Notes under the pieces: generated by a model
The model's input: the letters and a program-made list of their open reading frames with translations, nothing else
What the model was told of the DNA's origin: nothing
Database searches by the model: none
Position numbers and translations under genes: made by a program
DNA from: Rhizophagus irregularis
Taxonomy: Eukaryota > Glomeromycota > Glomeromycetes > Glomerales > Glomeraceae
DNA: 64,000 nt
Direction: 5' to 3'
Assembly: GCF_026210795.1 (NCBI RefSeq)
Contig: NC_089458.1
Location: 992,001-1,056,000, forward strand
Shown: positions 27,897 to 37,541 of the stretch, one piece after another
How the letters are laid out: the number at the start of each line of letters is the position of its first letter
How positions within the stretch are numbered: position 1 is the first letter of the stretch

Positions 27897-30658
27897 ATGG
27901 GAACATTACTGGAACAACCTGAACCAGAAGTAGTCAAAGTTTCTATTCTAAACGAAGAATCGATAATTTTGGGATTTCATTTGACAAAATTTATGTTACG
28001 AGATATATTATCTAATATTCCTTCATCTACTTATGTAGTTATTACCGATAAAAATATTGCACCGATCTATCTTTCAAAGATTATTACTGATTTTGAAAAA
28101 GTTGCATCAAAATTAAATTTGATTAATACTACAAAACTAAGATTGATTACGTATATTATTTCACCAGGTGAGCAATCAAAATCACGAGATACAAAAGCTG
28201 AAATTGAGGATTTTCTTCTTGGTAAAGCATGCGGAAGAGATACATGTATTTTGGCTATGGGTGGTGGAGTTATAGGTGATTTGGCCGGATTTGTTGCAGC
28301 TACTTTCATGAGAGGCGTTCCATTTGTTCAAATTCCAACCACTTTACTCGCTATGGTGGATTCATCAATTGGGGGTAAAACAGCTGTTGATACTCCACAT
28401 GGTAAAAATTTAATTGGATCTTTTTGGCAGCCGAAAAGAATTTATATTGACTTAATGTTTTTGGAGACTTTACCTGAGAGAGAATTTAATAATGGGATGG
28501 CTGAAGTTATAAAGACTGCGGCAATTAGCAGTGAATTAGATTTTATTAATTTGGAAAATGGAGTATCAAGTATTCGTGAAGCAGTATTTTCAAGTCCTAA
28601 AAGAAATGTACAATATCAAGGTAGTTTATTTTATACTAAATCAATATCATGTAAACATGTAAACATGTTATAGTACTAGCTGTAGTAGAAATAAAAACTT
28701 TAATGATTTTGTTATTTTGAATTATGTTTAGGTGCAATACTTGCGACCCGAACTCCTTCACAGTCATTACTATTATCTGTAATTATGACATCAGCTAAAT
28801 TTAAGGCTGATGTTGTAACACATGATGAACGAGAAAGTGGACTTCGCGGTTTACTTAATTTTGGTCATACGATTGGACATGCCATTGAAGCCATTTTGTC
28901 TCCGGAATTACTTCATGGAGAGTGTGTTTCAATAGGAATGATTAAGGAAGCGGAAATTGCTAGACATCTTGGTCATCTCAATCAAGTTTCTGTTAGTAGA
29001 TTGTACAAGGTTTTACAGGATTACGACTTACCAGTCTCATTAGATGAAAAAAAAGTCAAAGATTTGGTTGGCAAGAAATTTTGTGCTGTTGATAAATTAA
29101 TGGAAATTATGAAGGTTGATAAGAAAAACCAAGGAGATCAAAAAAAAATAGTTATACTCTCATCCCTCGGAAGTACTTATGAGAAAAAGGCGACCATTGT
29201 TTCTGATTCCGTGATTCGTAAAATTTTATCACCCGTTATAAAAGTCTTACCTATTACATTATCTTCAAATATTTCATCAACTCATGTTACAATGACGACA
29301 CCGGGATCAAAATCCATTTCAAATAGAGCTTTAGTTCTAGCAGCATTAGGAAATGGAACCTGTAGGCTTAAAAGTCTGTTATATTCGGATGATACTCAAG
29401 TGATGATGGTTGCTTTACAAAAATTAAAGGGAGCAAAGTTTGAATGGGAGAATGATGGCGAAACTTTAGTTGTTACTGGTGGTGGCGGCAATCTTCAAGT
29501 TCCTGATGATGAACTTTATCTTGGAAACGCGGGAACAGCCTCAAGATTCCTTACTACAGTCTGTACTTTAATATCAGCTGAAACGGCTAATCAAAAAAAC
29601 TCACCACTTTAACTGGTAACGCTCGTATGAAGCAACGTCCGATTGGTCCTTTAGTTATGGCACTTCAAGAAAATGGATCTCAGATTCGTTATGTCGAAAA
29701 TGAAGGATCTCTTCCTATTGAAATAACTCCATCACAAAACAAATTCAAAGGTGGCGAAATAAATCTCTCTGCATCTATCTCATCTCAATATGTTACATCT
29801 ATTTTGTTGAGTGCACCTTATGCTTCTGAACCTGTAACTTTAACTTTAACCGGAGATAAGGTTGTTTCTCAGCCATACATTGATATGACAATTGCAATGA
29901 TGGAATCATTTGGTATTAAGGTTGAACGACTTGAAGGTAATGTTTACCGTATTCCACAAGGAAAATATACAAATCCTAGTGAATATGTAATTGAATCAGA
30001 TGCTAGTTCTGCCACTTACCCATTAGCCGTAGCTGCAATTACTGGAATTACATGCACTCTCCCAAATATTGGATCAACATCTCTTCAAGGTGATGCTGCA
30101 TTTGCTGTTAAAGTATTAGAACCAATGGGTTGCACTGTCACTCAAACTGAGACAAGTACTACAGTTCAAGGTCCTCCTATTGGATCATTACGTCCATTAC
30201 CCAATATTGATATGGAAACGATGACTGACGCATTTTTAACAGCATCTGTCTTGGCTGCAGTCGCATCGAATAATGAAGAAGAATGCATAACTCGAATTAC
30301 CGGAATTGCTAATCAACGCGTTAAGGAGTGTAATAGAATTTCAGCGATGGTTCATGAGTTAAACAAGTTTGGAGTAATTGCATCTGAACTTCCTGATGGT
30401 ATTCAAATACATGGGTCTAAAATTCAATCCCTCAAAGGCCCTATAAGTGGCGTAAAATGTTATGATGATCATCGCATTGCAATGAGTTTTAGTATACTTG
30501 GATGTGTTGTTCCAGATGGCACAATTATTCGTGAGAAAAAATGTGTAGAGAAAACTTGGCCTGGTTGGTGGGATGATTTAGAAAATAAGTTAGGAATGAA
30601 TTTTCTTGGAGTTGATTTTGGGTCAAGTGATGATTTATTAAATCATAATGAAGCTTAG
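27897..30658 (+). pseudogene. Partial AROM copy 1: intact DHQ synthase, frameshifted EPSP synthase
   Basis: Exon 1 is 27897-28620, the intron 28621-28731, and exon 2 starts at 28732. The DHQ synthase domain (3-dehydroquinate synthase, shikimate step 2) is complete. It has the NAD loop [24 protein letters not shown], the zinc ligands in AEVIK, FGHTIGH and LLHGE, and VDKKN. EPSP synthase follows ([16 protein letters not shown]), but a run of seven A at 29593-29599, against eight in copy 2, shifts the frame to a stop at 29612. As read, the product is about 534 residues: a full DHQ synthase with a short EPSPS stub. The remaining EPSPS frame resumes to 30658, including [10 protein letters not shown], and ends in its own stop after NHNEA. 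There is no shikimate kinase, dehydratase or dehydrogenase. It may act as a stand-alone DHQ synthase. Confidence 0.8.
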
Positions 30659-35700: not shown

Positions 35701-37541
35701 CACATGCTTCAGATTATATTATAGCATGTGGCGGAGGTATAGTTGAACATCCAGCATCACGTGAGCTTTTGAAACAATATTCACAAAATCATGGTGAAGT
35801 TGTTCATATTGTAAGAGATATGAATGATGTAATCAGATATTTGAATAAAGACACTTCGCGTCCAATGCTTAGTGAAGATTTATTTAACGTCTGGAATAGA
35901 CGTAAAACATTATATAATGAGTGCTCAAATGTTGATGTCAATACAATCAATACAATCGGTGGGATGACTGTTGAAAATATTGTCGAAATTATTAGAAAAA
36001 CGAGGCGTACATTTTTTATTTCCTTAACTTTTCCGGATATAACTCCCGCATTAAAAATTATGCCTACCATTACTCACGGAGTGGATGCAATTGAACTAAG
36101 AGTGGATTTGCTTTCAGAAAATGGAGACATGCCTTCTGTTGAATACATTCATGATCAATTAGCAAGTTTAAGACGTTCATCATCACTTCCAATTATTTTC
36201 ACCATAAGGTCGCAAAGTCAAGGTGGAAAATATCCTGATACGCAAGAAACAGAATATTTTAATCTTCTGGAGCAAGCTATCAAGAATGGATGCGAGTATA
36301 TAGATGTAGAAATCCATAAATCTCCAAAACTGATAGATAATTTGATTAAAATGAAAGGGAATACTAAAATAATTGCTTCTTGGCATGATATTCCTGGTAT
36401 TATGAAATGGGATGGTGAAGAAGTTAGACGACGGGTTAGAACCGCCCATAATATTGGTGATATCATTAAAATAGTTGGACGTGCGAAATGTCTTTCCGAT
36501 AATTTTAAATTACGAGAATTTGTTGAATGGCAACAACAGCATATTAAGAAACCAGTTATTGCAATTAACATGGAAGTTGAAGGACAACTTTCTCGTTTAC
36601 TAAATCAAACGCTTACTCCTGTTACCCATCCATTGCTTCCATCAAAAGCTGCTCCTGGTCAACTTTCTGTTAACGAAATTCACAAGGGCCTCCATTTAAT
36701 CGGCCAATTACCAAAGAAAAAATTTTATATCTTTGGAAATCCTATAGCTCATTCTATGTCACCTACACTTCATAACACTGGTTTTGAAGTATTAGGCTTA
36801 CCACATCATTATGATTTATTTGAATCCGAAGATATTGAAGCGGTTAAGCCCATTATCGAAGATATTGAGTTTGGAGGTGCATCAGTGACAATCCCGCATA
36901 AAATAAGCATTATTCCATTTTTAGATCAAATATCTGAACATTCTAAATTAATAGGGGCGGTGAACACAATTATCGTCACCGAAAGTGAAACTGGACGTAA
37001 ATTAATCGGAGAAAACACAGATTGGTTAGGAATTTATTCTTCGATCAAACCTTTAATTGAAATCAATTCCGAAACAATAGGTTTAGTTATTGGAGGAGGT
37101 GGAACTTCTCGTGCGGGAATATATGCACTACATCAACTTGGAGTACATACGATTTATTTATATAATCGTACGCAAGCTAAGATTGAAGAATTAAAAAATC
37201 AATTTCCTAAATATGGAATTGTTGGTTTGTCATCACTTTCTGATGAACGAATAAAACAAAAACCTCCACGAATAATCGTGTCTACTATTCCTGCGACTTC
37301 TAATATAGAAATTCCTTATGAACTTTTTGCATCTGGTAAAGGGGGTGTAATAGTTGAAATGGCATATAAACCAAGAAGAACTCAATTATTAGAAAAGGGT
37401 GCTGAAAATGGATGGATAGGTGTTGAAGGAGTACAAGTTTTAATTGAACAAGGTTTATGCCAATTTGAAGAATGGACAGGAAGAAGAGCACCAAGAAATA
37501 TTATCGAAGGAAATGTTCACAGAAAATATAATAATTCTTAA
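32783..37541 (+). CDS. ARO1: Pentafunctional AROM polypeptide, full-length copy 2
   Basis: Exon 1 is 32783-33512 and exon 2 is 33595-37541, encoding about 1558 residues, the normal AROM length. It catalyses the five central shikimate steps from DAHP to EPSP in the cytosol. The domains are: DHQ synthase 1-415 ([23 protein letters not shown]); EPSP synthase 425-870 ([26 protein letters not shown]); shikimate kinase 878-1045 (P-loop GMRGVGKTT); type I dehydroquinate dehydratase 1050-1270 ([13 protein letters not shown] with the Schiff-base lysine); shikimate dehydrogenase 1283-1558 ([30 protein letters not shown]). One oddity is that the NAD-contacting loop PGExxK of DHQ synthase reads SVRRAK here. 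The conserved glutamate is lost although copy 1 keeps it. The rest looks intact. Copy 2 lies 2.1 kb downstream of copy 1 on the same strand. Confidence 0.95.

Follow-up and report, generated by a model that had tools for sequence, protein, structure and literature searches.

When the gene for a fused enzyme is found twice in tandem, and each copy seems to lack something that the other has, do the two copies divide the work? The question is raised by a stretch of 64,000 nucleotides of Rhizophagus irregularis (positions 992001-1056000 of contig NC_089458.1, C30 in our numbering; hereafter the window), with a G+C content between 17 and 37% in 2-kb steps. Here the initial annotation had placed two neighboring genes for AROM, the aromatic amino acid protein in which fungi keep 5 enzymes fused: 3-dehydroquinate (DHQ) synthase (DHQS), 5-enolpyruvylshikimate-3-phosphate (EPSP) synthase (EPSPS), shikimate kinase (SK), DHQ dehydratase (DHQase), and shikimate dehydrogenase (SDH). 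Both genes are indeed there on the forward strand, copy 1 at 27897-30658 and copy 2 at 32783-37541. We arrive at a reading, to which we give a probability of about 0.5, in which copy 1 would supply DHQS and EPSPS, while copy 2 would supply EPSPS, SK, DHQase, and SDH, and would keep its own DHQS domain, weakened or dead, as a scaffold for dimerization.

The anatomy of the two genes differs at the 3' end. In copy 2, all 5 domains of a pentafunctional AROM were found, in the order DHQS-EPSPS-SK-DHQase-SDH and in a single open reading once spliced, so that its description as full length holds; in copy 1, only DHQS and EPSPS were found. Each copy has a single GT..AG intron, and the position and phase of this intron are common to both. 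In a blastn comparison, the likeness between the copies begins at 27876, 21 bases 5' of the start codon of copy 1, and it fades between approximately 30625 (the end of the blastn match) and 30637 (judged by eye), just 5' of the point where the SK domain starts. Copy 1 is therefore cut at a domain border.

For the genome-wide copy number, we searched all 146,748,485 bases (32 contigs) for each domain family in six frames, without introns and scoring the best candidates, a procedure that a distant gene split into many parts could escape. The DHQS family gave 2 matches, one in each AROM copy, and the EPSPS family gave 3 pieces, all of them inside the two copies. SK, type I DHQase, and SDH gave one match each, all in copy 2, both when the whole protein was used and when the search was done family by family; the family search for type II DHQase gave no match in the genome. 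In addition, a tblastn search of the rest of the window, with copy 2 set aside, turned up no remnant of any of the three domains SK, DHQase, and SDH (best E 2.5). The absence of the last three domains from copy 1, which had been claimed from the letters alone, is thus borne out.

The DHQS domains, which diverge by 13% between the copies, differ in a loop of the cofactor site. The motif G-E-x-x-K is kept in all 13 other aligned sequences (3/3 fungal sequences from the PDB, 9/9 bacterial sequences, and copy 1, which reads SPGEQSK), whereas copy 2 reads PSVRRAK with its flanks in register, and only the lysine of the motif remains; both loop sequences agree with the initial annotation. Across the loop region, the amino acid differs between the copies in 7 of 9 codons and there are no synonymous differences, and each changed codon is a single base away from its counterpart in copy 1, except for that of the glutamate, which is 3 bases away. 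An assembly error had been named as a possible source of the changed loop. Because the change consists of nine base differences over nine codons in an open frame, a homopolymer error is excluded as that source. We take the glutamate to be residue 81 in the numbering of Aspergillus nidulans and presumably a contact of NAD; a literature search for Glu81 of DHQS and for the loop returned no paper that names the loop contacts. We also considered whether the loop of copy 2 arose through compensating -1/+1 shifts, since T-S-K can be read at the matching place in another frame of copy 2. This path was rejected as not better supported: judged by eye, it needs roughly the same number of substitutions as the in-frame path and two indels on top of them. 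No templated source of the loop DNA was found in the genome, where a 26-base pattern, with as many as 3 mismatches allowed, occurs at copy 2 only. As a separate observation, the loop codons of copy 1, CCA GGT GAG (28164-28172), contain CAG/GTGAG, which is similar to the consensus of a 5' splice site and is absent from the loop of copy 2.

Departures from the family outside the loop are also distributed unevenly between the copies. We compared both DHQS domains with those of three distant fungi (A. nidulans, Chaetomium thermophilum, and Candida albicans, none of them from the Glomeromycotina), in which 189 aligned columns are identical. Of these columns, 15 differ in copy 2 only, 1 differs in copy 1 only (P = 0.0005), and 24 differ in both; with the loop left out, the counts are 12 and 1 (P = 0.003). 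Among the changes that could be polarized, 15 of the 27 on copy 2 fall at invariant columns, compared to 1 of the 16 on copy 1 (Fisher P = 0.0012). Constraint on the DHQS domain of copy 2 is therefore relaxed, as far as such column counts can tell, and it is relaxed precisely at the sites that the family holds strictly. The fold, on the other hand, is still constrained, given a nonsynonymous divergence (dN) of 0.091 between the copies against a synonymous divergence (dS) of 0.376 (NG86; dN/dS about 0.24). At 25 listed functional positions, compared with A. nidulans, copy 1 has the same residue in all 25, and its standing as a better DHQ synthase candidate than copy 2 is supported by these comparisons. 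The column asymmetry, drawn as it is from three outgroups that are all distant, with no close relative among them, is the chief new support for the suggestion, made in the initial annotation, that copy 1 may supply DHQS and copy 2 the other 4 activities. Two parts of this suggestion stand: as a candidate for DHQS, copy 1 is preferable to copy 2 (1 versus 15 of 189 columns), and copy 2 is the sole match for SK, type I DHQase, and SDH.

A number of observations weigh against a loss of activity in copy 2. The total of polarized DHQS changes, 27 on copy 2 and 16 on copy 1, does not differ significantly (P = 0.13), and the 12 changes of copy 2 at conserved sites outside the loop are mostly mild (for instance V to I, L to I, E to D, T to S). 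Copy 2 also keeps 23 of the 25 listed functional positions, including the zinc ligands and the loop lysine, with E81R and L183I as the differences, and it passes the cut-off of the aroB equivalog (348 versus 305 bits; copy 1 reaches 365 bits). Together with the dN/dS of about 0.24, the kept positions, the mild substitutions, and the aroB score would fit a copy 2 that is still a working pentafunctional AROM, in which the change of the loop is tolerated or only weakens the binding of NAD, with copy 1 as a redundant or dosage-raising DHQS-EPSPS gene. Such a copy 2 is harder to reconcile with the G and E of the loop being kept in 13/13 other sequences, with the 15 to 1 asymmetry at conserved sites, and with a loop in which 7 of 9 codons changed their amino acid and none changed synonymously. 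We consider a still-working DHQS domain in copy 2 possible, if short of probable, and it remains a serious rival. AlphaFold models of the exon-1 parts, built from an 11-sequence alignment, were poor (mean pLDDT of 60.7 for copy 2 and 64.8 for copy 1) and were not used as evidence.

The EPSPS domains show the opposite pattern, as the copies are nearly identical over approximately 970 bases. The best stretch of 960 sites contains 3 differences, where the minimum in 20000 shuffles was 41, and the longest run identical between the copies measures 486 bases, where the shuffles reached a maximum of 194. Within this tract, 311 codons were compared, 72 before a run of A residues that is discussed below and 239 after it. 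They contain 3 synonymous changes, all of them after the A-run, and no amino acid changes, and before the A-run there are no substitutions at all. The synonymous divergence is thus nil before the A-run and 0.018 after it, compared to 0.376 in DHQS. Since the synonymous differences vanish too, recent gene conversion, rather than constraint on the protein, explains the identity of the EPSPS parts. Conversion could in principle account for the whole pattern, if EPSPS was homogenized while DHQS drifted in both copies without any division of labor, and the tract is certainly clear (each of the shuffles contained at least 41 differences). Drift in two copies, however, would not be expected to leave copy 2 with 15 of the 16 departures from invariant columns that are confined to one copy, and we regard this explanation as very improbable.

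The initial annotation described the EPSPS domain of copy 1 as frameshifted, and left the EPSPS step to copy 2. The frameshift is present in the sequence as given: the A-run has 7 residues in copy 1 and 8 in copy 2 (34456-34463), which puts a stop at 29610-29612, after which the shifted frame is open up to a stop at 30656-30658. Its presence in the organism is doubtful. The flanks of the A-run are identical between the copies over 219 bases on the left and 260 on the right, and 91 of the 91 possible placements of a 100-base read across the run contain no base that distinguishes the copies; short-read polishing is therefore blind at this site. A missing A in such a run is a typical Nanopore error, and the sequence is probably that of the Nanopore assembly. 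According to the excerpt of PMC10234402 that we consulted, this assembly (R. irregularis DAOM197198, GCA_026210795.1) was made from Nanopore reads; Nanopore reads together with Illumina reads from Maeda and colleagues served to polish it, and its quality is Q36.27. If our sequence is this assembly, that value corresponds to about 0.6 expected errors over the 2651 bases of the coding length of copy 1. The Illumina data consist of 101-base paired genomic reads (library PE180) in the excerpt of PMC6123716, and their amount conflicts between the two excerpts, with 423 Mb in PMC6123716 and 83.7 Gb in PMC10234402. In our judgment, an assembly artefact is somewhat the better explanation of the frameshift; a real frameshift is probably a recent one, and copy 1 would still yield its whole DHQS domain. 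More generally, 29374-29859 and 34237-34723 are identical but for the length of the A-run, short reads cannot be assigned to either, and any frameshift that a polished long-read assembly shows here deserves distrust.

With the A-run set aside, the EPSPS domain of copy 1 contains no stop and no other indel, and by its sequence it looks little decayed. Past the tract, 95 codons of EPSPS and linker contain 6 synonymous and 13 amino acid changes. Of the latter, 8 fall among the final 18 of these codons, on the side of the linker, and by eye copy 1 shares an A and a Y with both AROM outgroups where copy 2 has V and F. One could nevertheless see copy 1 as a pseudogene at the start of its decay, with a real frameshift, next to a copy 2 that carries out all five reactions, or four and a residual first one. 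The shorter A-run with its premature stop, as assembled, and the three missing domains would agree with this, as would the last 95 codons (dN 0.080, dS 0.147, ratio about 0.54), which alone would fit weak constraint and count against a maintained EPSPS in copy 1. A decaying copy 1, however, would not be expected to have the better conserved DHQS domain, nor an EPSPS frame that is open past the shift and free of amino acid changes in the tract. The outgroup A and Y that it keeps and the crowding of changes into the last 18 codons speak against decay as well, the A-run lies where 100-base reads carry no diagnostic base, and even a real shift would leave the whole DHQS domain to be made. We find a pseudogene unlikely. 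The proposal that the EPSPS step is left to copy 2 alone is not supported, as the frame of copy 1 shows no decay in the tract and the difference in the A-run is recent or a sequencing error. Of the “complementary damage” that had been ascribed to the pair, the part on copy 2 has its marks of lost constraint in DHQS, whereas the damage to EPSPS in copy 1 may not exist.

The division of labor to which we give even odds would have its origin in a history that we infer from this anatomy. An ancestral AROM gene would have been duplicated in tandem, after which the part past EPSPS was lost from the upstream copy, or never reached it, leaving a gene for a two-domain DHQS-EPSPS protein, while the downstream copy remained full length. 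Full DHQS function may have been preserved by selection in copy 1, and selection may have eased on the DHQS domain of copy 2, which would have lost the P-G-E of the cofactor-site loop and retained its fold, zinc ligands, and most of its active site. Most or all DHQ synthase would then most likely come from copy 1, EPSPS would be read in both copies, and SK, DHQase, and SDH would come from copy 2 alone, with gene conversion keeping the EPSPS parts alike and leaving the DHQS difference in place. AROM dimers are held chiefly through the DHQS domains (PMC9074039, in the part consulted). This would give a reason to keep a folded DHQS domain, weakened or dead, in copy 2, where it is probably retained as the dimerization domain of the AROM particle. 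The two proteins might even form mixed dimers through DHQS, in which copy 1 gives an active DHQS in trans to an AROM particle built on copy 2, and the DHQS of copy 2 is a pseudoenzyme scaffold. We think this improbable; if true, a fused pathway enzyme would be re-dividing into a two-domain and a five-domain subunit that are obliged to pair.

Compared to known systems, copy 2 has the same five-domain order as fungal AROM/Aro1 (C. thermophilum 6hqv, C. albicans 7u5s, and, for DHQS, A. nidulans 1dqs), and both copies match the DHQS and EPSPS of these proteins. Unlike them, the locus has two tandem genes, one of which stops after EPSPS, and a DHQS loop without G-E in the other. That the loss of one AROM activity is covered by another gene is already known: in C. 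albicans, the DHQase domain of Aro1 is inactive and a separate enzyme, Dqd1, is proposed to cover for it (from the excerpt of PMC9074039). Similarly, the full-length AROM of R. irregularis would keep the fold of a domain whose activity is supplied by another gene. The domain here is DHQS, however, its substitute is a truncated tandem AROM copy rather than an unrelated enzyme, and the loss of activity is a prediction. The conversion of EPSPS beside a diverged DHQS is a further difference. By title and start of abstract, we found no paper on this gene pair, in searches too few to call the pair undescribed; in the part of PMC6316171 consulted, the sole mention was the title of a reference.

The domain border that closes copy 1 is familiar from the regulators of quinate use. 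The quinate activator QUTA is derived from DHQS-EPSPS. QUTA and the quinate repressor QUTR part at this border too, that of domains 2 and 3; for QUTR, its correspondence to SK-DHQase-SDH is given in the excerpt of PMC10512348, and the QUTA half of the comparison is general background. A role of copy 1 as a QUTA-type regulator was considered and found no support, as its DHQS active site is kept and the frames scanned contain no DNA-binding domain. Specifically, Pfam gave no match for an N-terminal zinc binuclear cluster in the reading of DHQS or in either of the two frames that come after it, and an exon further upstream was not sought.

Table 1. Features of the two AROM copies, in positions of the window.
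Feature	Position	Strand	Evidence
Copy 1 exon 1, first part of DHQS	27897..28620	+	ORF, splice site, Pfam PF01761 (160.9 bits)
Copy 1 loop SPGEQSK, G-E-x-x-K kept	28161..28181	+	Alignment
Copy 1 intron, GT..AG, phase 1	28621..28731	+	Spliced reading aligns with homologues
Copy 1 exon 2 to in-frame stop past A-run: remainder of DHQS, start of EPSPS	28732..29612	+	ORF, Pfam
Gene-conversion tract, copy 1 side	29374..30343	+	Copy comparison
Copy 1 A7 run, site of apparent frameshift	29593..29599	+	Copy comparison
Copy 1 EPSPS continuation in shifted frame, 343 aa, own stop	29627..30658	+	ORF, PF00275 (288.3 bits)
Copy 2 exon 1, first part of DHQS	32783..33512	+	ORF, PF01761 (152.1 bits)
Copy 2 loop PSVRRAK in place of x-P-G-E-x-S-K	33053..33073	+	Alignment, in register
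Copy 2 intron, GT..AG, place and phase as in copy 1	33513..33594	+	Splice sites
Copy 2 exon 2: remainder of DHQS, EPSPS, SK, type I DHQase, SDH	33595..37541	+	ORF, Pfam
Gene-conversion tract, copy 2 side	34237..35207	+	Copy comparison
Copy 2 SK domain	35520..35987	+	Only PF01202 match in genome
Copy 2 type I DHQase domain	36015..36689	+	Only PF01487 match in genome
Copy 2 SDH domain	36729..37505	+	PF08501 (only match in genome) and PF18317

The window contains further candidate genes. Downstream of copy 2, a 5-oxoprolinase-like gene spans three frames (42117-45140), the first two of which match Hydantoinase A and B, while the third (44685-45140) was assigned by eye. A frame at 49521-50171 (-) matches the N-terminal domain of TRAPPC10 (60.1 bits). 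Finally, two RNase III-like or mL44-like frames, 57699-58568 (-) and 62511-63041 (+), are alike by eye and are possibly a second paralogous pair; the latter matches Ribonuclease_3 (40.2 bits), and the former matches no Pfam family at E 0.001.

The locus carries a caution, in that the apparent frameshift lies at the very place where short reads are of no use for polishing a long-read assembly. Beyond that, there is no settled account of why five enzymes stay fused in the AROM of fungi, and no structural sign that AROM active sites exchange with one another is reported in PMC9074039. A fused copy that seemingly hands a step to its truncated sister lets one ask which of the domains need to remain together, and for what reason. 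The pair also lets one ask whether a dead DHQS domain may persist as the scaffold of the dimer.

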